The translations under genes were made by a program, and so were the position numbers. A stretch of DNA of 64,000 bases from Actinoplanes auranticolor (GTDB lineage Bacteria; Actinomycetota; Actinomycetes; Mycobacteriales; Micromonosporaceae): positions 1-64,000 of the forward strand of contig NZ_BOQL01000065.1 of NCBI RefSeq assembly GCF_018332655.1. Reading direction: 5' to 3'. This document shows, one piece after another, positions 26,760 to 52,051 of this stretch. Below the pieces are notes generated by a model. It saw only the letters and a list, made by a program, of their open reading frames with translations, did not search any database and had not been told where the DNA came from. Position 1 is the stretch's first letter; the number at the start of each line of letters is the position of its first letter.

Positions 26760-26905
26760 CACACCCTTACTTCGCCGGAGCCGGGAAGAGTGTTCAGTCG
26801 AGTTGTCGGCGACACCGACGACGATGGTCCCGGTGCCGCGAACACCGGTACCCAGCCGGAGATCCAGCTCTCGCCGCGTCAGCGCAGCACCGCCGCAGCG
26901 ATTCT

Positions 26906-26946
26906 CGGCCGGCTTGCGGAACACGATCGGTTCCGCAAGCCGGCCG
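26906..26946 (-). terminator. Perfect 17-bp hairpin ending the 26971-31628 operon
   Basis: The arms 26906-26922 and 26930-26946 are exact reverse complements (core GGCCGGCTTGCGGAAC) around a 7-nt loop. It lies 24 nt beyond the GDSL hydrolase stop, so it ends the six-gene minus-strand operon. Confidence 0.8.
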
Positions 26947-26970
26947 GATCACCACAGCTCCTTCCCCACC

Positions 26971-28545
26971 TCAGAACGGGAGTGCGCGGCGCAGCAGGTC
27001 GAACGCCTCGTCAGCCCAGCCGAGTACCGCCAAGCCGGCCGCGAGGTTCTGGGGCGGCCTGGTCAGCAGGGTGTCGCGGCGTAGCAGCCGGCCGAAGTCG
27101 ACGCTCACCGGGTCCGGTCTCGGCGTAACCCCGTCGGTGCGACAGAACTGCACACCGGCGCGCCGCATCACCCGGATGATCTCGTCGGCCAGCAAGCCGT
27201 AGCCGATCGTGGTCGGGTGCACGCCGTCCAGCGAGAACAGGCCTCCGTCGGCGCGCCCACCGCGCCGATCCGAGATCATGAAGCGCGAGGTGACGGGCGG
27301 CGACACCGCGGACAGTGCTGCCGGCAGCGGGTATCGCTGCCACCACGGCGGCCTGGCGGTTGGATCGTCGATGTAGCGGCGGTCCGCCAGCCGGTCGAGC
27401 ATTCCGGCCGCCTCCATCACGAACCAGTCGAGGCCGTCGGAGCGGGCCTGCCGTACGACCCCGGTGATGGCGTCGTTGAAATGATCGATGGCACTGTCCA
27501 CGGCCCGGGCCTCGTCCGCCGTGATGTTCGGGTCCCGGCGCGGATCGAAGGCCCGATCCGAGATCCATGGCCGGGTGTAGAAGGGGAAGTAACGGGATCC
27601 GGCCTCGATCTTCGAGCCCACGCCGCGACTGATCGGAGGGATCGTCACGTGCGGCACAGTGCACCAGATGACGTGGCGGGCCTTGATCTTTCGCACCGCG
27701 GCGACCACTTCAGCAAGTTCAGCGGCGAAGTGGCTGGGCCGCCATACCGTGTAATCGCCCTTCCGGTCGGGATCGTCGTATCCGTCCCCGCTCCAGACCA
27801 CTTTGAGCCGGGTTACGGCGCCCAGCGCGTTGTTGGCACCCAGGGACACCACCAGGGTTTCGATGCCGCAGTCCGCGCCGGCGCCGGCGCCCTCCTCGCC
27901 CAGTTCCTCGGCCAGTTCGAACAGAGTTGCGGAGCCCCGGGCGTCGGTGTCCGGGTAGACGCGCAAGGCGGCCCGCTCGCTGTTGTTCTCGACCACCTGC
28001 GTCACGAGGTCGTCTTTGGGCTTCGCCAGCCGGTCGCGGCAAGCTTTCGCGTTCTGGGACAGGGCGTCGCGCAGATCCCAGCCGTACATGGCGAGGTTGT
28101 GATTCACGCCGTTGACATGAGGGATGACCGAGCCGGGGCCACGTTCCCAGTAGTCCTCGAGGGTGTCCATCCACTGGCGGGCTGAGAACAGAGCCGCCGG
28201 GACTTCCCACCAACTGAGCTGTTCGCCGTACCGCTGTTCAAGAGTGCGCAGGAGCAGTTCGATGTTGATCGGGAGACCGCCGGGACCGCCGTACGTCGGG
28301 CGGCGGAACGTGTCGAGGCAACCGAGCTCGTAAGCGATGATCGCCGGCACCGAGAGGTCGGTCTGGTACACGGCACCGCTCTGGAACCCATGGAACAGGG
28401 AGTCGCCGATTGTCACCAAACGGTGCGGCGGGACACCTTGCCAGTTCGTCTGCACGTCGACACCCAGCGCGGGGTCGGCGACCGGGGTACGGGGGGTCCG
28501 GGTGACGCCGACGTCGTCGGGAATCCCTTCGGGCATTGTCTGCAC
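26971..28545 (-). CDS. SGNH/GDSL-family hydrolase, last gene of the prenyltransferase operon
   Basis: 524 residues, no signal peptide. Block I is LVTIGDSLFHGFQSG with the nucleophile Ser. Block III is LVVSLGANNALGAV, where the usual G-x-N-D is A-N-N. Block V is LDGVHPTTIGYGLLAD with the catalytic Asp and His. Long insertions between blocks make it about twice the length of a minimal SGNH esterase. It would cleave an ester or acyl bond on an unknown substrate. It follows the 154-residue protein gene by 18 nt containing GGAAGGGAGG, and is the sixth gene of the operon. Confidence 0.8.
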   Translation of the reverse strand: MQTMPEGIPDDVGVTRTPRTPVADPALGVDVQTNWQGVPPHRLVTIGDSLFHGFQSGAVYQTDLSVPAIIAYELGCLDTFRRPTYGGPGGLPINIELLLRTLEQRYGEQLSWWEVPAALFSARQWMDTLEDYWERGPGSVIPHVNGVNHNLAMYGWDLRDALSQNAKACRDRLAKPKDDLVTQVVENNSERAALRVYPDTDARGSATLFELAEELGEEGAGAGADCGIETLVVSLGANNALGAVTRLKVVWSGDGYDDPDRKGDYTVWRPSHFAAELAEVVAAVRKIKARHVIWCTVPHVTIPPISRGVGSKIEAGSRYFPFYTRPWISDRAFDPRRDPNITADEARAVDSAIDHFNDAITGVVRQARSDGLDWFVMEAAGMLDRLADRRYIDDPTARPPWWQRYPLPAALSAVSPPVTSRFMISDRRGGRADGGLFSLDGVHPTTIGYGLLADEIIRVMRRAGVQFCRTDGVTPRPDPVSVDFGRLLRRDTLLTRPPQNLAAGLAVLGWADEAFDLLRRALPF

Positions 28546-28563
28546 CTCCCTTCCGAGGTGGTG

Positions 28564-29025
28564 TCAGGCGGCCGACACCTCGTCACACCGCAGGATCTCT
28601 CCGTTGACGACCGCGTTCGCGGTCGCCTGCACCGACCGGACGTCCAACTTCGGCCCTATGCCGGGCTTGGCGGTGCCCGGGTCGGGCAACCCGGAGCCGG
28701 CGCCGGCGTCCACCGAGATGCCGATCCCCGCACTCCACAGGCGGGCATCCGCCTCCGCGGCGTTGACCCGCCGGTCGGACCGGCGCGCCGCGCCGGGCAC
28801 CGTGCTGGGCAGGACGCCCTGGAAGGTGGCGGAAACCTCGATGGACTCCACCGGCTTGTCGACCCAGTCCTGCTTTTTGAAGAAGATCCAGACGGTGGTC
28901 TCCTCCCAGTGCTGAGCGTGTACCGTCGCGCCGATGGCGTTGTAGAACAACAGGTTGGTACGCCAGGCGGTCAGGACGAGCCGCCAGGTCCGATCCCGCG
29001 TGTAAGCCCGGCTCTCGGTGGCCAT
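28564..29025 (-). CDS. Unknown 153-residue protein of the prenyltransferase operon
   Basis: Start ATG 29025 is set by GGAGG 7 nt upstream and forms a TGATG overlap with the previous stop. Begins ATESRAYTRDRTWRLVLTAW and then has hydrophobic, Trp-rich strands (HAQHWEETTVWIFFKKQDW). A Gly/Pro-rich middle and a second beta-type segment (PKLDVRSVQATANAVVNGEI) follow. No signal peptide, no membrane helix and no motif I recognise. The alternating pattern suggests an all-beta fold. Tight coupling implies it functions with its neighbours. Confidence 0.7.
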   Translation of the reverse strand: MATESRAYTRDRTWRLVLTAWRTNLLFYNAIGATVHAQHWEETTVWIFFKKQDWVDKPVESIEVSATFQGVLPSTVPGAARRSDRRVNAAEADARLWSAGIGISVDAGAGSGLPDPGTAKPGIGPKLDVRSVQATANAVVNGEILRCDEVSAA

Positions 29026-29324
29026 CACCGCACCTCCACGGGCTTCGGGAAGGGTGGCAACAGACGGATCCCTCGCCGGCGGGAAGCCGCGAACAAGGCG
29101 AGGGCACCGCGGACGCCGAGTCGTGACAACAACACCGCCAGAGCGTGGGCGCCGGTGCTGATCCGGGTCCGGCCGCCACGAGTCGACCGGATGACGTACG
29201 GGCGTTCCAGGCGGCCCGGGCCCCTGTGCGGTTCCACGTGGACGCGCGTCCGGGCGGCGCCGGCGATGACATGGGCGAGTTCGTCGCAGTGTGGGCAGTC
29301 GCTGTCGTACACCAACGTGACCAT
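29025..29324 (-). CDS. Small CPHC thiol-redox protein (thioredoxin/DUF393-like)
   Basis: 99 residues from ATG 29324, with AAAGGAG 7 nt upstream and a TGATG overlap with the prenyltransferase stop. It opens MVTLVYDSDCPHCDELAHVI, a beta strand leading to a CPHC active site and helix, as in glutaredoxin/thioredoxin-fold proteins. CPHC is the DsbA-type dithiol. After about residue 35 the chain is Arg-rich and gives no clear second half of a thioredoxin fold. No signal peptide is present, so it would act in the cytoplasm. A role in thiol or disulfide handling of an operon substrate is inferred. Confidence 0.65.
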   Translation of the reverse strand: MVTLVYDSDCPHCDELAHVIAGAARTRVHVEPHRGPGRLERPYVIRSTRGGRTRISTGAHALAVLLSRLGVRGALALFAASRRRGIRLLPPFPKPVEVR

Positions 29325-30340
29325 CAAGAGACTCCTTTGGTCGCGGTCAAGTAGTAGGTGAGCGTGGGAATGCCGGTCAGCCGGATGCCGAGCATGGTCG
29401 GCACGGCTCCGGCGGCTACCAGCCGAACGGCGGCGTTCACCGGCGCGCTGGGCAGGCCGAGTACTCGGGTCAGGTCACCGACCGCTGCGGCGCCGTCGGT
29501 GGCGGGATCGAGGAGCTTGGTGGGGAGGTAGAGCGCGGTGGTCACCAGCGCGGCCAAGTCCGCTGTACCGGTCCGGCCCACCACCGCCTGCCGCTCCGGC
29601 ACGGGTGCCGCACCACGCAGAACGGCCGCCACATCTGGGTGCCGAGCCGCCTCGGGCAGCAATGCGAGCGCTGCAGTCGCGGTACACGGTCGTTCGACCC
29701 GGCGATAGACCTTGACCGTGTCGGGGCCGTCCCCGCTCACTGCGAGACCGACGATGCCCGTACGCGCCGGAAGATCACGGTCGCCGTCGAGCAGCCGGCG
29801 CAGCATCGGCACGGTGTGCTCGGGCATCAGATCCGCGGCGGGCACGGCACCCAGCTGAGGCGGCAGATAGACCTTGGCGACGGCCGGCGACGAGCCGCCG
29901 GCGCGGTAACCGATGCTGCACCAGAGCCCGAATCGGTGGACCGTGGTGAGGGCCGGCGCAGAGGCCCGCAGACGGCAGGCCAGCCGATGCCCGGCGGACC
30001 AGCGAAGCGCGGTCGAAACCCGCGTCAACTGGTCCGCCTGGCGAACCAGTCGTTGCGGTCCCGGCGGTTCGGTCGCGTAGGCGTCCGTGGTGAGCCGCAC
30101 CGCTGTACGGCCGTCCGCCCGGACGGACACCGACATCTCCACGGGTACGCCTGACGGCGTCAGGGTCGAGCCACGCCGTCCGGTGGAGGCGGGGAACGAA
30201 CCGACGGTCAGGGCGTCCCACGAACGAGACGTCGCTGTGGCCGGCACACCCGCGGCTTCCGCGGCCAGCGCGTCCCACAGCGCGCGAACCGGCGCAGCCG
30301 CGGTGGCGGACGCCGCTGTGGGGCAGCCTGAGCCCACCAT
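29324..30340 (-). CDS. ABBA/DMATS-type aromatic prenyltransferase-like enzyme
   Basis: 338 residues from ATG 30340, 4 nt after the preceding stop; longer in-frame starts run through the collagen-like gene and are rejected. Features matching bacterial DMATS-type ABBA prenyltransferases: STLTPSGVPVEMSVSV near residue 60 (compare the S-L-x-D-G-P-E-S strand); HRFGLWCSIGYRAGG then VAKVYLPPQ (FGLWxS...KVYxxP); DTVKVYRRVERP (second K-V-Y strand, one of the diphosphate-shielding Lys/Tyr positions); and a final strand LTGIPTLTYYLTA. These enzymes attach prenyl groups to Trp, Tyr or other aromatic rings. The acceptor is unknown. The family call is by motif spacing only. Confidence 0.6.
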   Translation of the reverse strand: MVGSGCPTAASATAAAPVRALWDALAAEAAGVPATATSRSWDALTVGSFPASTGRRGSTLTPSGVPVEMSVSVRADGRTAVRLTTDAYATEPPGPQRLVRQADQLTRVSTALRWSAGHRLACRLRASAPALTTVHRFGLWCSIGYRAGGSSPAVAKVYLPPQLGAVPAADLMPEHTVPMLRRLLDGDRDLPARTGIVGLAVSGDGPDTVKVYRRVERPCTATAALALLPEAARHPDVAAVLRGAAPVPERQAVVGRTGTADLAALVTTALYLPTKLLDPATDGAAAVGDLTRVLGLPSAPVNAAVRLVAAGAVPTMLGIRLTGIPTLTYYLTATKGVS

Positions 30341-30344
30341 GACG

Positions 30345-31046
30345 TCATGCCTGCTTGATGAACTGCCCGGAGCCGGCAACGCCGGTGTTGCCCGAGGCGG
30401 CCGACGCGCCCGGTTCGCCGGTGTTCGCGGGTCCCGGGGGATCGCCCGGCTCGTAGTCGGAGTGGCTGTAGCTCGTCGCGCGGCCCTTGCCGGTTTGACC
30501 GGTGTTGCCGGCCGGTCCACCGGCACCGCCGAGCCCGCCGGGCCCACCGCGGCCGCCACTGACGTCCCACACGGGCGGGATTCCTGAGAGGTCGTCGCGG
30601 TAGTAGATCACGATGCTGCCGCCCGGCCCGCCGTCACCGCCACGACCGCCGTCACCGCCACGGCCGCCGTCACCGCCACGGCCGCCGTACGCGTTGCTCT
30701 CACAGTCGGCACCCCATCCGCCGTCGCCCCCGGGACCGCCGCTGCCTCCGGTGCCGCCATTGCCGCCTGTGCCGCCGATGCCGCCGAGACAGCTGATCTG
30801 GATACCGCCCAGGTAGTCGTCCACCTTGATGACGACTGCTCCGCCGGCGCCACCCGGTGTACCGGCGGAACCGGAACTACCGGCGGCACCCCGCCCGCCG
30901 TCGGAGCCACGAGTCGGCTCGTTGTCGTCCCAGAAGCCGCAGTCGGCATCCTGGCCGGGAACGCCGTTGGCGCCGGCCGTACCGACGAAACCGTTCTGTC
31001 CCGCAGCGCCAGTGGCACCGGCCGCCACGATGTTGAATCCAGGCAT
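30345..31046 (-). CDS. Collagen-like Gly-rich repeat protein
   Basis: 233 residues, more than a third Gly, with long GGxGGx and GxY runs (for example GGRGGDGGRGGDGGRGGDGG). Two related modules interrupt the Gly tracts: GGAVVIKVDDYLGGIQISC (about 69-87) and GGSIVIYYRDDLSGI (about 142-156), each a beta strand pair. Cys occurs at CGFWDDNEP, QISCLGG and ADCESN. No signal peptide or membrane segment. Similar proteins are thought to form beta-solenoid or polyglycine-II-like rods. It sits 9 nt after the preceding gene and 4 nt before the prenyltransferase gene. Confidence 0.75.
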   Translation of the reverse strand: MPGFNIVAAGATGAAGQNGFVGTAGANGVPGQDADCGFWDDNEPTRGSDGGRGAAGSSGSAGTPGGAGGAVVIKVDDYLGGIQISCLGGIGGTGGNGGTGGSGGPGGDGGWGADCESNAYGGRGGDGGRGGDGGRGGDGGPGGSIVIYYRDDLSGIPPVWDVSGGRGGPGGLGGAGGPAGNTGQTGKGRATSYSHSDYEPGDPPGPANTGEPGASAASGNTGVAGSGQFIKQA

Positions 31047-31055
31047 GCTGATCTC

Positions 31056-31628
31056 CTATTCGCCCTTGATGGATGTCGCGGTGATCTGCAAGCTCTTGCC
31101 CGACGCGACGATCCGGGCATTGCTTCGGATGAGCAGGTTGCGACAGGCCAGTGCCGCGTTGAAGTCGGTGAGCAGCAGCGTGCCGCCGGGGTTCACGGTC
31201 ACGTCCTGAAAGAGCCACTTGACGATCTGCGGCTTGCCCGGGAGCACGGTGTCGCGATCCAGGCCGTGGGTTGCGATCACAGCCGGGTCGAATTGACGCG
31301 CGATCCGCCAGAAGGTGCTGATCTTGGTGCGCTCAGCGGTTGGCAGGGCGGCGAGCATGCGCGGGTAGCGGCCGAGGTCCGGCCGCAACGACCCGGGCAC
31401 AAAGCGGCGGGACCGGTGTACGGCCACGTCCGCGAGCGCGTCCCGGGTGACGGTGGTCGCGGCCTCGGCGAGCTGCCGAAGTTCGCCGTCGGTGTCGACG
31501 ACGCCCTGATCGACGAGGTCGCCGAGCCTGGTGAGCGTCATCGTCCGGCGGGCGTCCGAGAACGGTTGCCCGGCTCGGTCGTCCAGCCGCACGGTGGAGT
31601 TGTCCGCAACGAGGATGTCGTCGGGCAT
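31056..31628 (-). CDS. First gene of the operon: helical protein with beta-solenoid-like C-terminus
   Basis: 190 residues from ATG 31628, supported by GAAAGG upstream; the in-frame extension to 31676 is not conserved-looking. An N-terminal beta segment (DDILVADNSTVRLDD) and a helical middle are followed by VKWLFQDVTVNPGGTLLLTD, then ACRNLLIRSNARIVASGKSL and a last strand ITATSIKGE. The final 50 residues look like two or three rungs of a right-handed beta-helix. The Gly-rich protein encoded next could continue such a structure. No function is recognised. Confidence 0.65.
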   Translation of the reverse strand: MPDDILVADNSTVRLDDRAGQPFSDARRTMTLTRLGDLVDQGVVDTDGELRQLAEAATTVTRDALADVAVHRSRRFVPGSLRPDLGRYPRMLAALPTAERTKISTFWRIARQFDPAVIATHGLDRDTVLPGKPQIVKWLFQDVTVNPGGTLLLTDFNAALACRNLLIRSNARIVASGKSLQITATSIKGE

Positions 31629-31873
31629 GACATCACGCCTTTCCGGTCGGTGGCAATGGCCGGTGGAGTCGGCCACCTGTTTCCAGGCTGGCCGGTCGCG
31701 CGACGGCAGTAATCCGGCTGCGACATGAATTGCGGTGTCATCCGCGGGACGTATCCGGCGTAGGCGGGTACCGCCCCGGTCGTATGTGTCGGGTACATGA
31801 ATGACGGATGTCGCCGGGCCGAGATACCGAGAAGAATCGGTGATGATCCATTTGTTGCCCGAAGGGAGTCACC
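31629..31873. other. 245-bp divergent regulatory region
   Basis: This region separates the minus-strand six-gene operon from the plus-strand peptide/two-component unit and must hold both promoters. Two partly symmetrical stretches, ATGTGTCGGGTACAT (31783-31797) and acgtcgtgtgtaggt at the plus-strand start, are possible sites for the adjacent LuxR-type response regulator. No clear -35/-10 pair is visible. Confidence 0.3.
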
Positions 31874-32452
31874 GTGGTCACGTCGTGTGTAGGTATCGTT
31901 TCGGTTCAGCGCGTGACGGCCGGCGACGCCGTTGATCGCCACATTGTTTTCGGAGAGCTCGTTGATGCCGACGCGGTCGTGGTGCCCGGCCCTCTCGACT
32001 GGTTGCGGGACCCGGCGATCGACTTCGAGGTGTTGATCGCATCGAGCCGCCGGGGCGGCCCCGGCCACGTCGAGCGGGTACGGGTCCGGCAGGCGGAGGT
32101 GATCGGTGTCGACTCCGGCCCGGAGGGCGCCTGCGCGGTATTACGTCTGGAGCGGGCGGCGGCACACCGCCCCTACGCCGGTGGCCGCTTCGACGGGGAC
32201 CGGCTGCGGACCGAGCTCGAGGGCTATCCGGACGTATGGCGTGGGCTCTGCGCCATCGGCGCGGTGCGCACCGAGCTCACCGACCTGGACAAGGATCGAG
32301 TGCTCCGCCCGGTGGCGGATTGGGAGGCGGCCCGGCGTGCCGCCCTGGTACGGGAACGACTGGTCAGTCCGGCCGAAGTCGCGCAGCTGAAGTGCTGCAT
32401 CTTCGTGATCTGCTGGTGGTGCCAGGAATGCCGGGGGGACTGGTGGGACTGA
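31874..32452 (+). CDS. Degenerate trypsin-like domain with Cys/Trp-rich C-terminal tail
   Basis: 192 residues from GTG 31874 with GAAGGGAG at 31861-31868. The first ~95 residues follow the order of a trypsin N-terminal barrel (FGELVDADAVVVPGPLDWL, FEVLIASS, ACAVLRLERA), but the His expected in the AAHC position and the Asp expected before ALLRL are absent, so no protease activity is expected. After a charged helical linker the protein ends CCIFVICWWCQECRGDWWD, with five Cys (including CxxCxxC) and four Trp in 19 residues. The tail could be a modified core peptide, a metal site or a membrane anchor. Its codons overlap the kinase start. Confidence 0.6.
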   Translation: MVTSCVGIVSVQRVTAGDAVDRHIVFGELVDADAVVVPGPLDWLRDPAIDFEVLIASSRRGGPGHVERVRVRQAEVIGVDSGPEGACAVLRLERAAAHRPYAGGRFDGDRLRTELEGYPDVWRGLCAIGAVRTELTDLDKDRVLRPVADWEAARRAALVRERLVSPAEVAQLKCCIFVICWWCQECRGDWWD

Positions 32453-38557: not shown

Positions 38558-39964
38558 GTGACGCGACACGCGTCCACCGTCCCTGATGGAGGAGGAACCA
38601 TCCCTACGCGCAGAACAGTTCTGACCGGAGCGTTGACGATCGCGCTGACGACCGGTGGCCTGTCGATCGGTGGCAGTCCGGCCGCCGCCGCAGCCACCGA
38701 CGACCGGATCGACTTCTGGAACGAGACGCTCCTGGACGCCTTCCGCGACGCCGCCGACTTCGGCGCTCCCACCGCGCTGTCGCGGGCCGCGGCGATGATG
38801 CACCTGGCGATCTACGACACCTCGGTGTCACTCGGGGAAAGCACTACCGCCCCGTACATCGCCAGGGTGCCCCGGCAGCCGGGGGTCAGCTACGACTTCA
38901 ACGCCAACGTCGATGTGGCGGCGTACACGGTCCTGAAGGCCCTGTTCCCCGACCCGGAGGTGGCAGCGAAGATCGATGCGGCGTACGCCCTGGCCCGGGC
39001 CACTCCCCCGGTCGGCACCCCTGGGCCGGGGGGATGGAGTACGAGTGTCGGTCAGGCGGCCGCCGACCAGATCCTTGCCGCCCGCCGGTCCGACGGCTCC
39101 GCCGACACCATTGACTATCAGATCAGGCGCGTACCCGGACAGTGGCGCCCCACGGGAGCGGGTCCCGATCCGGTGACGCCGCACTGGGGCCGGGTGCGAC
39201 CGTTCGGCATCAACGGGACGCCGCAGTTCCGGCCCGGACCACCCGGTGGTTTCACGTCGCTGGAGGCGATGCTGGCCAGCGACGCCTACGCGGCCCAGGT
39301 CATCGAGGTCAAGAGGGTAGGCAAGCTCACGGCACCGAAGGCCAACCGTGACGACGAGCAGACTCAGATCGCCCACTTCTGGGCCAACGACCTGAAGGGC
39401 ACCTACAAGCCGCCGGGCCAGCTGCTGCGGCACACCCGGATCGTCCTCAGGCAGTTCCCGAACATCTCCCGCGGCGAGCGGGCCCGGCTCTACGCCCTGG
39501 TGTCGATGGCGCTGGCCGACGCCGCCATCGTCGCCTGGGAGGCGAAGTACGACACCCTCATCGACCTGTGGCGCCCGGAGAGCGCGATTCAGCTGGCTGA
39601 CACCGACCTGACTGAGCTGACCGTGAAGGACCCCGACTGGCTTCCGCTCTCGCAGAGGCGCAACGGCACGCCGGTGTCACCACCGTTCCCGGCCTACATC
39701 TCCGGCCACGCCACGTTCGCCGGCGCCTGGGCCGGGGCCATGAAGTCGTTCTTCGGCACCGACAACGTGACGTTCGCCGCGAACACCGAGGATCCGTTCA
39801 TCGCCAACGGTGTGACGCGAACATTCACCTCCTTCTCGGCCGCCGCGGCCGAGAACGCTCGCAGCCGGATCTACCTCGGCGTGCACTTCCAGTGGGACGC
39901 AGACGCCGGGATCAGCTCCGGCACTGCCATCGGTACCTGGATCGGGGCCAACCGGCTTCGCTGA
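38558..39964 (+). CDS. Exported vanadium-dependent haloperoxidase/PAP2-type protein
   Basis: 468 residues from GTG 38558 with GAGGAA upstream. A twin-arginine-type signal (RRTVLTGALTIALTTGGLSI) ends in an Ala run. The helical body carries the vanadium haloperoxidase/PAP2 motifs: PPFPAYISGHATFAGAWAGA (SGH) and ARSRIYLGVHFQWDAD (SRxxxGxHxxxD), plus an upstream DLWRPESAIQL equivalent of the KxxxxxxRP motif, here R-P. It may oxidise halides or hydrolyse phosphate; bacterial homologues of this length are usually annotated as haloperoxidases. Folded export by Tat fits a cofactor-containing enzyme. Confidence 0.82.
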   Translation: MTRHASTVPDGGGTIPTRRTVLTGALTIALTTGGLSIGGSPAAAAATDDRIDFWNETLLDAFRDAADFGAPTALSRAAAMMHLAIYDTSVSLGESTTAPYIARVPRQPGVSYDFNANVDVAAYTVLKALFPDPEVAAKIDAAYALARATPPVGTPGPGGWSTSVGQAAADQILAARRSDGSADTIDYQIRRVPGQWRPTGAGPDPVTPHWGRVRPFGINGTPQFRPGPPGGFTSLEAMLASDAYAAQVIEVKRVGKLTAPKANRDDEQTQIAHFWANDLKGTYKPPGQLLRHTRIVLRQFPNISRGERARLYALVSMALADAAIVAWEAKYDTLIDLWRPESAIQLADTDLTELTVKDPDWLPLSQRRNGTPVSPPFPAYISGHATFAGAWAGAMKSFFGTDNVTFAANTEDPFIANGVTRTFTSFSAAAAENARSRIYLGVHFQWDADAGISSGTAIGTWIGANRLR

Positions 39965-43232: not shown

Positions 43233-43270
43233 GTCGATCCCGGTCATGCGGCGATGGCCGGGACAGACCA

Positions 43271-43302
43271 GGGCGCGGGGACCGTCGAAGGTCCCCGCGC
43301 CC
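43271..43302 (-). terminator. Perfect 13-bp hairpin after the ThuA/GSDH gene
   Basis: GGGCGCGGGGACC (43271-43283) and its exact complement (43290-43302) flank a 6-nt loop, 20 nt past the minus-strand stop at 43323. Confidence 0.75.
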
Positions 43303-43322
43303 ATCACGCGCGGTCTACCCGG

Positions 43323-46300
43323 TCAGCTGTAGACCTCGAACTCGAACAGCGAGTAACCCCAGGCCGTGGCGCGGGCCGTACCGTTGACCCGCACGTAGCG
43401 ACCCGTCGCGGCCAGCGCGGTGTTGTCGTCCACCCCACCGTCACTACCGGTGACCGTCCGGACCGTGGTCCAGGTCGTCCCGTTGGCCGACGTCTGGATC
43501 TGGTACCCCGAGCCGTACGCCCCCTCCCAGGTCAGCTTGACCCGATTGACCGGGTACGACTGACCGAGATCCACCTGGATCCACTGCGGATCGGCGAAGG
43601 CACTCGCCCACCTGCTGGTCAGCGATCCGTCCACCGCGGCGGAGGCCGGGTAGGCGACCGCCTCTGTGCTCGACGCCGTCGCCGGCTTGTTCAACGCCAG
43701 GTTGCCCGAGGGCGGCGGTACGACGCCGCCACCGTAGACCTCGAACTCGAACAGCGAGTAACCCCAGGCTGTGGCGCGGGCCGTACCGTTGATCCGCACG
43801 TAGCGACCCGTGGCGCCCAGCGCGGTGTTGTCGTCCACCCCGCCGTCACCGCCGGTGACCGTCCGGACCGTGGTCCAGGTCGTCCCGTTGGCCGACGTCT
43901 GGATCTGGTACCCCGAGCCGTAAGCCGCCTCCCAGGTCAGCTTGACCCGGTCGATGGAGGTCGACTGACCGAGATCCACCTGGATCCACTGCGGGTCGCT
44001 CGCGGTGCTCGCCCACCTGGTGGTCGGCGAACCGTCCACCGCGGCCGAGGCCGGGAACGCGCCGGACTCCGTGCTCGACGCCGTCACCGGCTTGTTCAAC
44101 GCCAGGTTCCCCGACTGCGGTGGCGTCGTGCCGCCGGAGGTGAACGTGAAGTCGTCGATGTCGAACAGCGATCCTGCGCCGCCGGTGAACACCAGGTACA
44201 GCTCGCGCGTACCGGTCGGCGGGTTGATCGTCCCCGTGACGTCGGCCCACGTCTCCCAGCCACCGGTCGGGGCGACCTGCACCGTGCCGGCCACCGGGCC
44301 GGTCGGCGAGTCGGCCCGCACGGTCAGCGTGCCGCCGACGCCGGCCGAGGCCACCCGCGCCCTGATGCCGGTGACGCCGGCCAGGTTGTACGGCGTGAAG
44401 GAGATCCAGTCGCCGTTCTCGATGTATCCGATGGCGTTGCCGCCGTGGGCGCTGGCCTTGGCGGCGACCTGGACGCCGTTCATGGTGCCGAAGTGCTCGG
44501 CCTGCCGGGTCCGCGGCTGCAGCACGTGCTGGTCCTGGACGGCGGCCCCGCTGACCGGGGTGTACACGGCGGCGAGCACCCCGAAGATGTTCGCGCTGGC
44601 GTCGTGCTCACCGTCCACCGTGGTCTGGATCGACCCGGTGCAGCCGTTCTTACTGGTGATCGGGTGACCGTGGCTGTCGTGCCCGAGGACGTAGTTGATC
44701 ACGACCCGGCTGCAGTCGACGGTGCCGGCGTTCGGATCGGTGACCCGCACCTCGAACGGCACCAGGTCACCGGGCTGGTACACCGATCCGTCGGCCGGTG
44801 TGATCAACTGGATGGACGGTCGGCCGACCCCGATGACGGAACTGGCCGTCGAGGTCTTGCCGCCGGAGTCCCGTACCGTCAACGTCGCGGTGTATTCGCC
44901 GTTCGCCGGGTAGGTGAACGTCGGGTTGGCCGCCGTGGAGTCGGTGCTGCCGTTACTGGTGAAGTCCCAGGCGTACGTGATCGGGTCGCCGTCCGGGTCG
45001 TTGCTGCCCGCCGAGCTGAACTGCACGGCCAGCGGCGCCGCACCGGACGACGGGGTGGCACTCATCTGCGCGATCGGCGCCCGGTTGCCGCCGGTGTTGT
45101 ACTCGATCCGGTAGACAGCCGAGTTGGCGTCGCCGCCGAACCAGGTGGTGCCGTAATCGAGCACGTACAGGGCGCCGTCAGGCCCGAACTCCATGTCCAT
45201 GATCGCGGTTCCGGACCACGGGATCGGCTCGATCGCGCCGGCCGTGCCGTTGGCGTTCAGGGTGACCGCCTTGATCCAGCGACTGGTGAACTCGCCGAGG
45301 AAGACCTTCCCGTGGTACGACGCCGGGAACTTCACATCGGAGGCCAGCGCCGGGTTGAAGTTGTAGACCGGACCGGCCATGGGCCCGCCCCCACCCAGCT
45401 CGGGCCGCCAGGGCCCCTGCCCGCCGTAGGGCAGCCAGGCCGCCTGCGACGGCGGCAGTTTGGTGATGCCGGTGTTGTTGCGCGAGTTGTTCGTCGGCCC
45501 ACCGGCACAGTCGTACGGACCGGACGACGGTCCGCTGGGGAACGTGAACTCCTGGTAGGGAGTGTTGTAGTTGGAGCAGTACGGCCAGCCGTAGAAGCCC
45601 GGCTGGGTGATCCGCTCGAACGAGACGGTGCCCGCCGGCCCGCGCTGCGGGTCGGCCGAGCCGGCGTCGGGGCCGTAGTCACCGAGGTAGACGACCCCGG
45701 TGGCCTTGTCGACGCTCATCTTGAACGGGTTACGGAAGCCCATGGCGTACACCTCGGGTCTGGTGTTCGCCGTGCCCGGGGCGAACATGTTGCCGGCCGG
45801 GACGGTGTAGCCGCCCGTCGCACCCGGCTTGATCCGCAGCACCTTGCCGCGCAGGTCGTTGCTGTTGGCCGAGGTGCGCTGCGCGTCGTAGGCGGGGTTG
45901 CGGTCGGCCCGCTCGTCGAGCGGCGCGGAACCGGCCGAGTCGAACGGGTTGGAGTCGTCACCGGTGGACAGGTACAGGTTGCCGGCGGCGTCGAAGTCGA
46001 TGTCACCGCCGACGTGGCAGCACAGCCCACGACTGGTCGGCACGTCGAGGATCGTCACCAGCGAGGCCGGGTCGATCGTGTTGTCGTCCCGTACGGTGAG
46101 CCGGGCCAGTTTGTTGGAGCCGTTGAACGGGGCGAACTGCGCCGCCGTGCCGGTGGACGGAGCGTCGCCGCCCGGCGTGCTGAGCGGTGGCGCGTAGTAG
46201 ACGTACACCCAGCGGTTGCTGGCGAAGTTCGGGTCGGCCTTGATGCTCTGCAGACCCTCCTCGTCGTGGCTGTAGACCGGCAGCGTCAGGGCGACCTTGG

Positions 46301-47198
46301 TGTTGCCGTTGACGTCGGTGTACCGGATGGCGCCGTTCCGCGAGGTGTGCAGCACACCCCGGTTGGGCAGCACGGTGAGGCCCATCGGCTCACCGGTCTC
46401 CGCCACGCCCTTGGCCAGGGTCACCTGGCTGAACGTGCCGGCGGGGGCCTGGACCGAGCAGTTGCCGAGGTTCTGCGCGGCGTACCTGATGCCGCCGAGC
46501 AGGTGGGTGCGGAAGTTGGCCTCGGTGTAGCTCTCCTGGGTGTGGCCGAGGCCGGTGTACCAGGAGCGTCCGCCGTCGTAGGGCCGGCACCACGAGATCG
46601 GGTGGTCGCCGTTCATGGTGCCGCCGGTGTACGTGGCCTCGTTGAGATTGGCGAGGACGTGCACCTGCGGGCGGGGGTTGGTGCGGTAGTTGTACAGCTC
46701 GTCGGTGCGGTTCCAGTTCACCGGGATGCCTGCGGTGGACGGGTGGGCGGTGTCCTCGATGCGGACGGTGACCGGCTGGATCGCGGGGTGGCTGGCGAAG
46801 TAGGCGCCGACGAGGTTGCCGTACCAGGGCCAGTCGTATTCGGTGTCGGAAGCGGCGTGCACGCCGACATAGCCGCCGCCGGCGCGGATGTAGCGCTCGA
46901 ACGCGGCCTGCTGGGTCGTGTTGAGCACGTCGGCGGTCGTGGACAGCCAGATGACCGCTTTGAACCTGGCCAGGTTCGTGTCGGTGAACTGGGCGGCGTC
47001 CTCGGTCGCCTCGACCGTGAAGTTGTTCTGCGTGCCCAGTTGCTGGATCGCGGCGATCCCCGCGGGGATCGCGTCATGCCGGAACCCCGCGGTCTTGCTG
47101 AAGATCAGCACCGAGAAGTCGGCCGCGAATGCCGGGGCGACGTTGACGCCCATCCCGGCCAGGACAAGAGCGACGATGAACAGCACTCTGCGAATCAT
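43323..47198 (-). CDS. Secreted multidomain ThuA-GSDH-PKD-CBM6-F5/8C carbohydrate protein
   Basis: 1291 residues from ATG 47198 (signal peptide VLFIVALVLAGMGVNVAPAF to residue ~24; the in-frame extension to 47489 crosses the operator and is rejected). Order: ThuA-like domain (about 27-240, SVLIFSKTAGFRHDAIPAGI, GGGYVGVHAASDTEYDWPWY); glucose/sorbosone dehydrogenase-like propeller (about 255-690, VYSHDEEGLQSIKADPNF, GDIDFDAAGNLYLSTGDDSN); PKD (NDPDGDPITYAWDF); a CBM6-like sandwich (YIENGDWISFTPYNLAG); and two F5/8-type C domains. Such proteins oxidise or bind plant-type sugars outside the cell. The promoter carries a LacI-type site, so sugar induction is likely. Cofactor requirement is unverified. 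Confidence 0.85.
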   Translation of the reverse strand: MIRRVLFIVALVLAGMGVNVAPAFAADFSVLIFSKTAGFRHDAIPAGIAAIQQLGTQNNFTVEATEDAAQFTDTNLARFKAVIWLSTTADVLNTTQQAAFERYIRAGGGYVGVHAASDTEYDWPWYGNLVGAYFASHPAIQPVTVRIEDTAHPSTAGIPVNWNRTDELYNYRTNPRPQVHVLANLNEATYTGGTMNGDHPISWCRPYDGGRSWYTGLGHTQESYTEANFRTHLLGGIRYAAQNLGNCSVQAPAGTFSQVTLAKGVAETGEPMGLTVLPNRGVLHTSRNGAIRYTDVNGNTKVALTLPVYSHDEEGLQSIKADPNFASNRWVYVYYAPPLSTPGGDAPSTGTAAQFAPFNGSNKLARLTVRDDNTIDPASLVTILDVPTSRGLCCHVGGDIDFDAAGNLYLSTGDDSNPFDSAGSAPLDERADRNPAYDAQRTSANSNDLRGKVLRIKPGATGGYTVPAGNMFAPGTANTRPEVYAMGFRNPFKMSVDKATGVVYLGDYGPDAGSADPQRGPAGTVSFERITQPGFYGWPYCSNYNTPYQEFTFPSGPSSGPYDCAGGPTNNSRNNTGITKLPPSQAAWLPYGGQGPWRPELGGGGPMAGPVYNFNPALASDVKFPASYHGKVFLGEFTSRWIKAVTLNANGTAGAIEPIPWSGTAIMDMEFGPDGALYVLDYGTTWFGGDANSAVYRIEYNTGGNRAPIAQMSATPSSGAAPLAVQFSSAGSNDPDGDPITYAWDFTSNGSTDSTAANPTFTYPANGEYTATLTVRDSGGKTSTASSVIGVGRPSIQLITPADGSVYQPGDLVPFEVRVTDPNAGTVDCSRVVINYVLGHDSHGHPITSKNGCTGSIQTTVDGEHDASANIFGVLAAVYTPVSGAAVQDQHVLQPRTRQAEHFGTMNGVQVAAKASAHGGNAIGYIENGDWISFTPYNLAGVTGIRARVASAGVGGTLTVRADSPTGPVAGTVQVAPTGGWETWADVTGTINPPTGTRELYLVFTGGAGSLFDIDDFTFTSGGTTPPQSGNLALNKPVTASSTESGAFPASAAVDGSPTTRWASTASDPQWIQVDLGQSTSIDRVKLTWEAAYGSGYQIQTSANGTTWTTVRTVTGGDGGVDDNTALGATGRYVRINGTARATAWGYSLFEFEVYGGGVVPPPSGNLALNKPATASSTEAVAYPASAAVDGSLTSRWASAFADPQWIQVDLGQSYPVNRVKLTWEGAYGSGYQIQTSANGTTWTTVRTVTGSDGGVDDNTALAATGRYVRVNGTARATAWGYSLFEFEVYS
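43329..44119 (-). repeat. Tandem duplicated F5/8C coding units, 405-bp offset
   Basis: The blocks 43329-43714 and 43734-44119 are nearly identical, with only scattered substitutions, and encode the two C-terminal discoidin-like domains. The high identity at silent positions suggests a recent duplication or ongoing gene conversion within the gene. Confidence 0.85.
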
Positions 47199-47470
47199 GA
47201 TCGGTTGGGTACCTCTCGTGAGGAAGCAACCGAGACGTGCGCCGATCACGTCTCGAACGGGGGCCGCGGTGGGCGACCCCGCGGGCGGGTCCCGGGACGC
47301 GCATGGCGGTGCCGCGTCTGTCCCGGCGGTGGAGAGTCGTCGGCACGTCGCGCCTCGGGGAAGGTCGCGCGGCGCCGTGATGGGGGATGGGGTGGGGGTC
47401 GGGTGGACGTGGGCGGCTGTGGACGGCGACCGAATCGGGGGTGCAGTGCCGTCGTCTTCACCTCGATCGG

Positions 47471-47490
47471 CGAGAGAGCGCTTTCCCATC
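47471..47490 (-). promoter_or_regulatory. LacI-family operator-like site
   Basis: GAGAGAGCGCTTTCCC is centred on AGCGCT (47477-47482), resembling CebR/MalR-type operators (GGGAGCGCTCCC core). It lies ~20 nt downstream of the predicted -10 box at 47503-47508, in a repressing position. Confidence 0.55.
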
Positions 47491-47502
47491 GAGGTGTGGA
47501 AA

Positions 47503-47530
47503 AGTTAACAGATTCGTCATCGCCCATCAA
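47503..47530 (-). promoter_or_regulatory. Promoter of the ThuA/GSDH gene
   Basis: On the minus strand TTGATG (47530-47525) and TTAACT (47508-47503) are 16 nt apart. Transcription would start about 47495, giving a ~300-nt leader that contains the LacI-type operator. Confidence 0.5.
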
Positions 47531-47716
47531 CGGTTTCATCGACCGCCGTGAAAAACCGCCTGCCGAGGTTTGCCCGGCCGGGGAGCACGCGGCGGTGATC
47601 CACGGGACGGTCCGACGAAGATTGCCTGGCCGGGGCGGGTCTGCCGATGATCTGCTGTCGGCAGACGGGCCATGGCGACGACCAGGCGACTCAGCGGGCG
47701 GATCTCTTCATCGCTG

Positions 47717-47735
47717 CTGGAGAGCGCTTCCCCAG
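47717..47735. promoter_or_regulatory. Second LacI-type operator-like palindrome
   Basis: CTGGAGAGCGCTTCCCCAG is a near-palindrome around AGCGCT (47723-47728), about 246 bp upstream of the first site. Paired sites could support DNA looping. Otherwise 47531-47956 holds no recognisable gene. Confidence 0.5.
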
Positions 47736-47956
47736 CCTGTTCAGACCACGCTACCCAACCGCGACACGGTCGGGCTCCGTTCCGAGATGGTTATCCAGGC
47801 AGAACGACACGCATCCCATGAAGCCGAGAAACCCGACTCCCGGTAGTCCATGTACGAGCTGCCCATACGAAAAGTAGATCAGCCCGGTGGTAGTCGGTCG
47901 CCTCTGGGTGAGCCGTCGGCAGACCAGTGCAACGACAGGCTGAGTTTCCAGCGATC

Positions 47957-48721
47957 TCAGCGATCCGGATCACCGTGGACCACACACGTCATCAGGGAAC
48001 TGACCGGGTGTCGCCGGTATCTGCGCCAGAAGGCCTCGTCGCGTTCACGGTCGGGTGGCGGCGTGCGGATCGGTGACCATTGGACGGTGTCGAAGCCGGC
48101 CCGCCTCGCGGCGCCCTCGTAGTCGGCGAGTTGCCACTCGTAGTCCTCCAGGGGTGTGGGCGGGTCGGTGGTGAACTCCTGACGGATCAGCGGGACCTCC
48201 CGGCCGGGAACGCGTTCGAGGATGCGCAGGCCGAACTCGTCATAGTTGGCCTCCGGGAACGGCGTGGGGTTGGCCACGATGGCCAGCAGGCGGCCGTGGT
48301 CGGCGAGGTTGGCGCGAATGCCGCGGAACATGGAGTCCAGCGCCGCGCGGGTGGGTGCGTAATTGAACAGGTAGATCGCGGTGGCGAGGTCGAACCGTCG
48401 CAGGGACGGCAGGTCCGCCACATCCGCGACGACGTAGTCGATGCCCATCGGCGACCCGGCCTCGTTCTTCTCGGCGAGGCGGATCATCTCCACGGAGACG
48501 TCGACGCCCACGACGGGCCGGGCCCCGCGTGCGGCCAGCAGCCGGGTGTTGTAGCCGTACCCGCAGGCGAGGTCGAGGGCGGCCAGACCGGTGACCTCAC
48601 CGAGGGCGCCGCGCAGCGTGAACGTGTCCGCGGCGGAGAAGGCGGCCGTCGACTTCGACTCCTCGAAGCGCGCGCCGATCGAGTCGTACTGCTCCGCGCC
48701 CGTCCCCGTGCCCGGCTTCAT
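47957..48721 (-). CDS. Class I SAM methyltransferase of the P450 operon
   Basis: 254 residues. Motif I is ALDLACGYGYNTRLLAARGA, the acidic loop is VVGVDVSVEMIRLA, and later motifs are IDYVVADVADLP, FDLATAIYLFNYAP and GRLLAIVANPTPF. It resembles ToxA/NodS-like small-molecule methyltransferases. The start overlaps the asparagine-synthase stop by 4 bp (ATGA), so it is the last gene of the minus-strand operon that begins at the P450. It is the probable O- or N-methylation step; the substrate is unknown. Confidence 0.85.
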   Translation of the reverse strand: MKPGTGTGAEQYDSIGARFEESKSTAAFSAADTFTLRGALGEVTGLAALDLACGYGYNTRLLAARGARPVVGVDVSVEMIRLAEKNEAGSPMGIDYVVADVADLPSLRRFDLATAIYLFNYAPTRAALDSMFRGIRANLADHGRLLAIVANPTPFPEANYDEFGLRILERVPGREVPLIRQEFTTDPPTPLEDYEWQLADYEGAARRAGFDTVQWSPIRTPPPDRERDEAFWRRYRRHPVSSLMTCVVHGDPDR

Positions 48722-50721
48722 CGGCGGATCAGCGCCCCGCCCGTGCCGTCGAACTGCCGGAGGAGCATCCGGTCGATGTCGACCTCCGGCACCTCGACAT
48801 TGTCGACCAGACTCTCCTGCAGCAGCAGCGTGCTGAGCACCTGCAGGTAGGCGTGGTTGTAGGGGAACGGAACTTGTCCCCCGGCGAAGGAGCCGACGTG
48901 GGCGACCAGCCGCTGCACCCCGGCGGCGTCGAGCACGCCGCAGTCGCGCACCCGGCGCGGCGAGAGGATGTCGTCCACCCAGTCCCCCGTGCCGGTGGGC
49001 AGGAGATGCTCGGCCCCGGGGATCCGCATCCCGAACTTCGGCCGGTCACGGATCTCCTCGGGCAGAACGTCCGCGTACGCCTCGCGAAGAATGTGCTTCT
49101 CCCTGGTCAATCCGCGCAGCTTCCACTCGCGGGGCAGACCGGCCGCGAAGGCGACGACCGAACGATCCACGAAGGGGTATCGCGATTCGATGCGGCACCC
49201 CGCGCCGGGACGGTCGGCGAGGCAGGTCATCCCGTACCCGCTCAGCAGTGTCTGGTAGTCCAGCCACTGGGAGCGGCCGACCGTGTCCAGGTCGTCGAAG
49301 CCGGTGATGCGGGAGCGCGCGAAGTCGGCCAGTCGCCGGTCATCGTCGGCGACGCCGTTCCTGGCCCGCAGCAGGCCGGGATACAGCTCGGCCTCGAACC
49401 GGCGCAGGTGCGCCCCCATTACCGGCGTTTGCCGGCCGGCACGGTCCTCGAAGAAGCGCAGGATCGCGGCCGGTGTCGTGGGATCGGTGAGCAGGACGTC
49501 GGCCAGGCCGGAGCCCAGCAGCTTCTCCTGCTCCGCCGTGAACCCGCCGGCCAGGCAGGAATCCAGGACGGTGGCCTCCTTGAGGATGTCGTACCCGAAG
49601 AACGCCTCGTCGGCGCCCTCCCCGCCGAGCACGATCCGGACCCCGCTCTGCCCCACGTGCTCGGCCAGCATCTCGACGGCGACCGGTGCGGCGAAGTGCA
49701 GCAGCGACTCGCACTTGCGGACGAGATTGGGGAACCGCTCGCGGATGTCCCGGCCGGTGGCCACGACGGACGAGTGCCGGGTGCCCAGCTTCGCCGCGAT
49801 GATCTTCTGGTACGCCGATTCGTCGGCCCACGAGTCCGGCACGGTGATGGAGAAGGTCGGCAGATCGCCGGTGATGTGCTGCCGGGCGATCCAGGCGACG
49901 ATGCTGGAGTCGAGGCCGCCGCTGAGGAACGCGCCGCGCGGGTAGTCCCCCCGCAGCCGGAACCGGACCGCTTCGTCGAGTTTGTCGCGCAACGCCGCCT
50001 TCGCGTCGGTGAACGACAGCTCCGTCCGGCCGCGGTCGCCACGGTCGATCGGGATCTCGAAGTAGGCCGACAGCACCGTCCCGCCGGGCCCGACGCGCAG
50101 AGTGTGACCAGGCGGAAGGCTGCGCACCCCGGTGAAACACGATTCGCCCGGCACCGGTGTCCAGAACCGGCCATTGGCCCGGACGCCCTCGACGGACAGC
50201 TCACGGTGCACTTCGGGGAACGCGAACAGCCCCTTGATCTCAGAGGCGAAGAGGAAGGCGCCGTTCTGCTCGGTGTAGAACAGCGGGCGTTCTCCGAACG
50301 GGTCACGCCCCAACAGCAGTTCACGGCGTTGCCGGTCGTAGAAGGCGAAGGCGAACTGGCCGTTGAGCCGGTCGAGGGCGGCCTCACCCCAGGTGGCGAG
50401 GCTGTGCAGCAGCACTTCCGTGTCGGAGTTCGTGGCGAAGGTGACGCCCTGCGCCACCAACTCCTGCCGGAGCTCCAGATAGTTGAAGATCTCTCCGTTG
50501 AAGCCCAGCACGAATCGTTCGTCGGCTGTGACCATCGGTTGCTTGCCGAGCATGGGGTCGATGACCGACAGCCGGACCGTCCCGAGGGTGAACTCGTCGT
50601 CGTCGTAGATGCCCGCCTCGTCCGGGCCGCGATGGGCGATGCCACGGAGGCCCCGGCGCAGGCTGGTGATCCGGTCGTCCCTGCGCTTTCGGCTGTTGAG
50701 GAAGCCGACGACACCGCACAT
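48718..50721 (-). CDS. asnB: Asparagine synthase (glutamine-hydrolysing)-type amidotransferase
   Basis: 667 residues. The N-terminal Ntn glutaminase domain starts MCGVVGFLN with Cys2 as nucleophile and has IAHRGPDEAG and GFNGEIFNYLELR. The synthetase domain has the PP-loop FLSGGLDSSIVAWIA and GEGADEAFFGYDI. It is slightly longer than housekeeping AsnB (~610-640). Placement between a GS-type ligase and a methyltransferase suggests amide formation on a biosynthetic intermediate rather than free aspartate. GAAAGGGG precedes ATG 50721. A lasso-peptide cyclase is less likely because the glutaminase domain is intact and no B-protein or precursor is nearby. Confidence 0.88.
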   Translation of the reverse strand: MCGVVGFLNSRKRRDDRITSLRRGLRGIAHRGPDEAGIYDDDEFTLGTVRLSVIDPMLGKQPMVTADERFVLGFNGEIFNYLELRQELVAQGVTFATNSDTEVLLHSLATWGEAALDRLNGQFAFAFYDRQRRELLLGRDPFGERPLFYTEQNGAFLFASEIKGLFAFPEVHRELSVEGVRANGRFWTPVPGESCFTGVRSLPPGHTLRVGPGGTVLSAYFEIPIDRGDRGRTELSFTDAKAALRDKLDEAVRFRLRGDYPRGAFLSGGLDSSIVAWIARQHITGDLPTFSITVPDSWADESAYQKIIAAKLGTRHSSVVATGRDIRERFPNLVRKCESLLHFAAPVAVEMLAEHVGQSGVRIVLGGEGADEAFFGYDILKEATVLDSCLAGGFTAEQEKLLGSGLADVLLTDPTTPAAILRFFEDRAGRQTPVMGAHLRRFEAELYPGLLRARNGVADDDRRLADFARSRITGFDDLDTVGRSQWLDYQTLLSGYGMTCLADRPGAGCRIESRYPFVDRSVVAFAAGLPREWKLRGLTREKHILREAYADVLPEEIRDRPKFGMRIPGAEHLLPTGTGDWVDDILSPRRVRDCGVLDAAGVQRLVAHVGSFAGGQVPFPYNHAYLQVLSTLLLQESLVDNVEVPEVDIDRMLLRQFDGTGGALIRR

Positions 50722-50743
50722 GGAAGCGAGCCCCTTTCGTAGG

Positions 50744-52051
50744 TCAGACAGATTCGAGGTAACGGCTGCGCTCCCAGCCGGACACCTCGGCGTCGGCGGC
50801 CGCCTGCTCCGCCCGGCCCAGCTGGCACAACAGGTCAGTCACCTGGTCACCCAGCGCCGTCCGCGCAAAGGTGCTGCCGCTGAGCAGGGCCAGGGCCTCC
50901 GACACGTTCCCCGGCAGCGGGTCGGCGTCGGTTGCCGCGTACACGTCGCTCGTGACGGCGGGTGGCGGTTCCAGTTGCTTCTCCAGGCCGGCCAGGCCGG
51001 CGAGCAGCTGGGTGGCGACCAGGAAGTACGGGTTGGCGTCGGCCGCCGCCACCCGGTGCTCCAGCCGTGTTCCGCTGTCCCCGTGCACCAGCGCCCGCAG
51101 GGCGACGGAGCGGTGGTCGTACCCCCACGTCACGTGCGTGGGTGCGAACGAATAGGTGGCCGACCGTTTGTAGCCGTTGGGCGTCGGCACGGCGACGTAA
51201 CTCGTCTCGGCGGCGTGATGCATCAGCCCGCCCAGATACCACCGCGCCTGCATGCTGAGTTCGCCGGATTCCGCGTCCCAGAACACATTGCGACCGGTCT
51301 CCCGGCTGCGCAGGCTCTGGTGGACGTGCAGGCCGCTGCCGGACGACTCCGCCCACGGCTTGGCCATGAAAGTGGCCAGATAGCCGTGCGCGGCCGCGAT
51401 CTGCTTGACGGCGTAGCGGAAGAACAGCAGGTCGTCGGCCGCGGCCAGCGGCGTGGACTGGCCCAGGTTGATCTCCACCTGGCCGGCGCCGTACTCCGCT
51501 CCGCTGGCCTCCACCGCGACGCCCGCGGCCAGCAGCGCCGACTGGATGTCCCGGAGCACCGGCCACAGGTAGGAGTCGTCGTGCAGGCTGTAGATGGGGA
51601 TGCGCGGATGCCGGGGGCGGAGCGTTCCGGGGTCGAGCAGATAGAACTCCGTCTCGAGACCGAAGCGCGCGTCGTACCCCGCCTGCCGGGCCTCGGTCTC
51701 CGCCCGGCTGAGGATCAGGCGCGGGTCGAGCGGGACGGGATGACCGGCCCGGTCCACGACAGTGCAGAACACCAGCGCTGTTCCCGGGCGCCAGGGCACC
51801 AGCCGTACGGTGTCCGGGTCGGGCACCAGGAAGACGTCCGGATAGCCACTCGCCCAGCTGTACTCGCCGGCGGAGAGCACGCCGAGGCCGTAGTCGAGAC
51901 AGAAGTACCCGGACGACATCGCGAACTGGGAAGTCTGCTGGAACACAGCCGCGGGTATGCGTTTGCCCCGGATCGCGCCGTGCGTGTCCACCACCGCCAG
52001 TTCCACGGTCTCGATCGCGTGGTCCTTGATGAACCGGTCAATCGGCGGCAT
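50744..52051 (-). CDS. Glutamine synthetase-family ATP-dependent ligase
   Basis: 435 residues from ATG 52051 with GGAGGAGG upstream; the start lies 14 bp inside the preceding gene. GS beta-grasp start VELAVVDTHGAIRGKRIPAA, metal-ligand region FGLETEFYLLDP and GAEYGAGQVEINLGQ, the catalytic FMAKPWAESSGSGLHVHQSL, and NGYKRSATYSFAPTHVTWGY with RLEHRVAAADANPYFLVA. It belongs to the GlnA3/PuuA-like group that forms gamma-glutamyl amides rather than the housekeeping dodecameric GSI-beta enzyme with an adenylylation Tyr loop. In this operon it likely activates a carboxylate as acyl phosphate for amide formation. Confidence 0.85.
   Translation of the reverse strand: MPPIDRFIKDHAIETVELAVVDTHGAIRGKRIPAAVFQQTSQFAMSSGYFCLDYGLGVLSAGEYSWASGYPDVFLVPDPDTVRLVPWRPGTALVFCTVVDRAGHPVPLDPRLILSRAETEARQAGYDARFGLETEFYLLDPGTLRPRHPRIPIYSLHDDSYLWPVLRDIQSALLAAGVAVEASGAEYGAGQVEINLGQSTPLAAADDLLFFRYAVKQIAAAHGYLATFMAKPWAESSGSGLHVHQSLRSRETGRNVFWDAESGELSMQARWYLGGLMHHAAETSYVAVPTPNGYKRSATYSFAPTHVTWGYDHRSVALRALVHGDSGTRLEHRVAAADANPYFLVATQLLAGLAGLEKQLEPPPAVTSDVYAATDADPLPGNVSEALALLSGSTFARTALGDQVTDLLCQLGRAEQAAADAEVSGWERSRYLESV

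Follow-up and report, generated by a model that had tools for sequence, protein, structure and literature searches.

The closest described relatives of the protein reported here are the bacterial DMATS-type indole prenyltransferases, which are represented by the PF11991 and TIGR03429 models and by the solved structures 6zry/6zrx, 5inj (PriB), and 6os3 (CymD). In TleC, as described in PMC4786772, Glu106 contacts the indole N-1, the diphosphate is anchored by Arg119, Lys187, Arg248, and Arg378, and Tyr252, Tyr317, and Tyr382 form the shield. For the NphB and DMATS families, Bonitz et al. (2011) took HHsearch probabilities of 50–75% to mean a common ancestry (PMC3227686). In NctPC, described in PMC13290415, a terpene cyclase is fused to a barrel prenyltransferase, and the enzyme geranylgeranylates Trp.

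In the window, that is, the whole 64,000-nucleotide stretch of Actinoplanes auranticolor DNA analyzed here, the initial annotation had described a divergent ABBA/DMATS-like prenyltransferase at 29324–30340 and had given no strand for it. All of the strings that it quoted were found, in the same order, in the minus-strand translation of this region: HRFGLWCSIGYRAGG at residues 135–149, AKVYLPPQ at 155–162, DTVKVYRR at 207–214, and TLTYYL at 326–331 of the protein designated P0001. Stops were present on the plus strand in the P0001 frame, and the GC contents of the three codon positions of the ORF (0.74/0.63/0.80) were coding-like; an antisense or spurious ORF was ruled out by the minus-strand translation and the codon-position GC. 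Because the part added in a longer form (411 aa from an upstream GTG) had GC contents of 0.74/0.81/0.71, without the coding-like pattern, the 338-aa form starting at ATG 30340 was favored. P0001 matched nothing in PHROGs or PADLOC, and on these empty results a phage or defense gene was ruled out. P0001 was located in a tight minus-strand run of six genes, in the following order:

31056–31676, minus strand: ORF-A, with which the run begins, 206 aa; no match above the cut-off to a Pfam or NCBIfam family
30345–31046, minus strand: 233-aa glycine-rich repeat protein; no family match in Pfam or NCBIfam
29324–30340, minus strand: P0001, DMATS-like protein of the PT-barrel superfamily, 338 aa; assigned by homology and the retained residues E68, R82, K156/Y158, K210/Y212, and Y330
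29025–29327, minus strand: CPHC protein, 100 aa, possibly thioredoxin-like; start overlaps the P0001 stop; good ribosome-binding site
28564–29028, minus strand: 154-aa protein; no family match; start overlaps the CPHC stop; good ribosome-binding site
26971–28545, minus strand: GDSL/SGNH-hydrolase-like protein, 524 aa; PF00657 at E 0.0074, below the cut-off

The gaps between these genes were, in order, 9, 4, −4, −4, and 18 nt, the gene of the glycine-rich protein, which contains W and Y, ending 4 nt upstream of the P0001 start; sequences like ribosome-binding sites preceded the last three genes. The CPHC protein had weak DCC1-like (E 0.095) and TrbB (E 0.048) matches, both under the cut-off, and ORF-A had no match outside its own genome among 180 genomes of the family, its own included. 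Near-full-length orthologs of the SGNH gene, with 66–71% identity, were present in 5 of 66 other congeners, and fragments in a sixth; the orthologous stretches of these five congeners showed no significant match to other genes of the P0001 run. A conserved syntenic operon of the congeners was ruled out, as their SGNH orthologs have a different neighborhood without the other run genes, and the run appears to be a module specific to the strain, set beside a gene of the genus. The GC3 values of P0001 (0.80) and the glycine-rich gene (0.78) were lower than those of the other four genes (0.84–0.92). No sigma-70-type promoter was seen in 26800–32300, which is weak information in a GC-rich actinomycete.

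The context had also been called non-canonical, with the usual partners missing, and this was borne out: there was no NRPS, PKS, tryptophan, phenazine, or terpene synthase gene among the 40 window ORFs scanned with Pfam. A possible small biosynthetic group consisting of a methyltransferase, an asparagine synthase-like amidotransferase, and a P450 was located at 47957–54559, at least 17 kb from P0001. Other features of the window were a PAP2-type protein at 38558–39964, with a match to the vanadium chloroperoxidase N-terminal domain under the cut-off (E 0.00027), and a 1530-aa plus-strand ORF at 43254–47846, which had no Pfam match and overlapped along almost its whole length with a minus-strand ORF of 1388 aa.

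With Pfam Trp_DMAT (PF11991), P0001 gave an E value of 0.034 (14 bits against a cut-off of 25), and with NCBIfam arom_pren_DMATS (TIGR03429) one of 0.0049 (16.2 against 163.85 bits), both matches covering only residues 47–90 or so. The initial annotation had set a score above the DMATS threshold beforehand as its test; P0001 was far under both cut-offs and therefore should not be filed under either family. For scale, the canonical DMATS of a congener, P0002 (L004), which matched the solved DMATS-type enzyme 6zry with 526.7 bits, itself scored 121.4 bits on TIGR03429. The cut-off of this model was passed by none of 200 genomes of the family, and 45 of the 200 had a match at E ≤ 0.01; canonical DMATS genes are common there. 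The P0001 genome itself had no second TIGR03429 match at E ≤ 10. Apart from DMATS, no other prenyltransferase family of Pfam or NCBIfam matched P0001 at E up to 1, and phmmer gave no match to PDB sequences.

BLAST aligned P0001 with P0002 at 32% identity over 126 aa (E 9e-8). When P0001 alone was compared by HHalign with 30 canonical DMATS enzymes of its family (L004 and L022 being omitted as duplicates of L036 and L005), the match ran nearly end to end over 300 columns, with a probability of 92.4 and an E value of 5e-7. The score was 55.4, whereas 175 other ORFs of 280–450 aa reached 24.5 at most, and 100 shuffles likewise 24.5. This profile homology with its controls upheld the description of P0001 as divergent ABBA/DMATS-like, and the full-length homology to bacterial DMATS enzymes was decisive. 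In the invariant DMATS columns (MAFFT --add), P0001 kept 25 of 60; the 100 shuffles averaged 16.2 and went up to 25, and among 54 other ORFs of the window one had 27, so that the count for P0001 was not above chance. Because the column count fails its controls, the homology claim rests on the profile score; a chance motif match was ruled out by the HHalign controls, though the invariant-column count alone would not do so. The AlphaFold (AF2) models of P0001, alone and with a Nocardia sequence, had mean pLDDT values of 34.2 and 34.9, and Foldseek with the second gave no match at E ≤ 0.001; because the models were without confidence, the fold comparison was uninformative as to the ten-stranded barrel of five alpha-beta repeats expected of the superfamily.

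No ortholog of P0001 was found in 60 neighborhood, 250 family, and 348 order genomes (overlapping sets), and P0001 is therefore without close kin among them. At E ≤ 0.001, the P0001 query matched in 4 of 60, 7 of 250, and 2 of 348 genomes, namely its own genome and otherwise weak matches only; the weak early matches L002, L003, L006, and L007, the first of which falls where another long ORF runs, were left aside. The A2 profile matched in 2 of 396 genomes of the phylum, the A3 profile in 3 of 218 genomes (the class of G901), and the A4 profile, from whose alignment the over-long ORFs L070, L079, and L083 (3 of 21 Nocardia proteins) were omitted, in 3 of 131 genomes of the family, two of them at E 0.004–0.009. 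The A4 profile gave no credible match to the PDB. Plasmid relatives of P0001, ORF-A, and the Nocardia protein were absent by tblastn, and no relatives were found on viral contigs. Two relatives were obtained, one of 355 aa from Nocardia flavorosea (L039, identical with L043) and one of 341 aa from an actinobacterial genome that belongs to another class (L040/L041). Directly upstream of the latter gene was another at L040:38–2403, whose stop overlaps the start of the DMATS-like gene and whose product we take, by eye, to be RHS-core-like. The position directly downstream of an RHS gene is often occupied by polymorphic-toxin partner genes.

A search of the genus Nocardia, which belongs to the same order as the host of P0001, gave a DMATS-like match in 36 of 148 genomes, two of them fragmentary only. 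The members of this family (L043 and L068–L087) were mostly 334–365 aa long and were also under the curated cut-offs, the three scanned with NCBIfam scoring 21.4 to 25.4 bits. HHalign of P0001 against 21 Nocardia proteins gave a probability of 89.4%, with a score of 50.7 over 308 columns and control maxima of 26.1 and 22.0; the Nocardia family against canonical DMATS alone gave a weak match (probability 6.0). Besides L042 and L043, 20 Nocardia loci with flanks, about 15 kb each, were compared with 20 arbitrarily chosen stretches of like length from the same genomes. Of the 20 loci, 17 encoded a protein whose N-terminus is of the EspC type (PF10824), as did 1 of the 20 control stretches. A squalene-cyclase-like gene, near the DMATS-like gene and encoding a protein of about 320 aa with weak SCO2321 and SQHop matches, was present in 5 of the 20 loci, in L043, and in none of the controls:

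L043, 10983–11954: squalene-cyclase-like gene
L078, 8179–9162: squalene-cyclase-like gene
L068, L071, L075, and L077: squalene-cyclase-like gene as a neighbor

The Nocardia loci are not independent, because several occupy one chromosomal site beside a glutamine synthetase-like gene, presumably glnA as judged by eye. The family is sizeable and, as far as one narrow literature search that gave no account of it can tell, apparently undescribed. In a maximum-likelihood tree, P0001 fell between the canonical group and the group of Nocardia proteins and L041, on a branch of 3.45; for this tree, canonical ORFs were trimmed N-terminally, and ORFs longer than 380 aa (L070, L079, and L083) were cut to the last 345 or 360 aa. 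The position is unsure because of the very long branch and the unusual composition of P0001, which stands at about equal distance from the canonical bacterial DMATS enzymes and the Nocardia family.

In a joint alignment of 53 proteins, 81 columns counted as conserved, with no more than one of the 30 canonical enzymes deviating. P0001 kept 28 of them; 14 of the 28 were also kept in at least 19 of the 21 Nocardia proteins, and 11 of the 14 in L041 as well. The 11 columns common to all groups were G47, E68, S70, R82, W140, K156, Y158, L183, K210, Y212, and Y330, with E68 identical in all 30 canonical enzymes, 20 of 21 Nocardia proteins, and L041. AKVYLPPQ and DTVKVYRR had been read as pyrophosphate-binding Lys/Tyr strands, and K156/Y158 and K210/Y212 did align with the canonical enzymes; the last strand, TLTYYL, also fitted, with Y330 kept in P0001 and in the canonical, Nocardia, and L041 groups. 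Y212 was likewise kept in all groups compared. When mapped by motif order, not by direct alignment, onto TleC as described in PMC4786772, E68, R82, K156, and Y212 would correspond to Glu106, Arg119, Lys187, and Tyr252, and Y330 probably to Tyr382. T208 is at the position of the canonical Arg in A-R-V-K-x-Y (TleC Arg248 by spacing), with K210 kept nearby, and I324 is at that of the last-strand Arg (TleC Arg378 by position, uncertain). Because of these two replacements, P0001 is predicted to retain the core of the active site, not the complete set. A canonical Tyr was replaced at T268, and Y271 matched a canonical Tyr that is not kept in the Nocardia family.

The homology, the retained residues, and the gene arrangement are observed, and from them we infer the fold, activity, donor, and acceptor of P0001: it is probably an orphan, fast-evolving member of the DMATS/PT-barrel group that still functions as a soluble aromatic prenyltransferase. 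The donor would be an allylic diphosphate, for example DMAPP or GPP, with R82, K156, and K210 binding its diphosphate and Y158, Y212, and Y330 shielding the allyl cation; E68 would be the base that acts towards an electron-rich aromatic acceptor. The allylic group would most likely be transferred in a metal-independent manner, as in DMATS enzymes. The acceptor, which need not be an indole, would probably be a metabolite that the co-encoded proteins handle, either a small aromatic or a peptide. The reading of the initial annotation is thus supported as essentially right, and P0001 is best named a DMATS-like orphan lineage within the PT-barrel superfamily, as that superfamily is defined by Bonitz et al. 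(PMC3227686).

A reading that we consider unlikely, though it carries some weight, is that the PT-barrel was kept and repurposed, and that P0001 is now a binding, partner, or regulatory protein without prenyl transfer. The loss of one phosphate-binding Arg, the doubtful second one, the replacement at T268, and the very long branch are consistent with this, as is the relative that lies directly downstream of the RHS-core-like gene with overlapping stop and start. However, every group still has the Glu, the Arg, the two K-x-Y pairs, and the final Tyr though most other columns have changed, which suggests selection on catalysis. It is more doubtful that P0001 attaches prenyl groups to Trp or Tyr in a protein or peptide of its own cluster, for example the glycine-rich protein. 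The tight run does include that protein with its W and Y, the divergent relatives adjoin genes of exported-type proteins in Nocardia and the RHS-like gene, and peptide-acting barrel prenyltransferases exist, the cyanobactin enzymes and NctPC as described in PMC13290415; however, no leader or precursor signature was recognized, and the neighboring proteins differ among the three lineages. Slightly less probable again is a broader proposal, in which P0001, the Nocardia family, and L041 would form a previously undescribed PT-barrel branch acting on exported proteins or peptides encoded alongside its members (type VII-type, RHS-linked, or glycine-rich) and not on free small molecules, with a terpene-cyclase-like partner in part of the Nocardia loci. 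That P0001 is unrelated to prenyltransferases and the match an artefact of chance or composition, as the sub-threshold profile matches and the invariant-column count might suggest, is very improbable, since the alignment is full-length and co-linear and the HHalign matches to two families are independent, each far above the controls of 175 ORFs and 100 shuffles.

As a probable aromatic prenyltransferase, P0001 bridges the canonical DMATS enzymes and a common Nocardia family that is missed by the curated models. If active, P0001 and this family would widen the prenylation toolkit and hint at acceptors outside classic biosynthetic clusters, and the type VII link in Nocardia raises the question of whether barrel prenyltransferases modify secreted actinobacterial proteins.

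Compared with known systems, P0001 shares with the bacterial DMATS-type indole prenyltransferases full-length profile homology, the catalytic Glu, the first Arg, the two K-x-Y strands, and the last-strand Tyr. Unlike them, it has a divergent N-terminal part and scores far below both model cut-offs, lacks the Arg of A-R-V-K-x-Y, has a doubtful last-strand Arg, and has no recognized biosynthetic partners nearby. The barrel prenyl transfer chemistry of the cyanobactin prenyltransferases and NctPC is a possible analogy (PMC13290415). A possible parallel is that some Nocardia loci, like NctPC, appear to combine a prenyltransferase with a terpene cyclase. The Nocardia family, with about 25% identity to P0001, differs from it in the link to EspC-type type VII genes and sometimes to a cyclase-like gene, and has in common with it the 'LTxSGxPxE' motif and the active-site residues.
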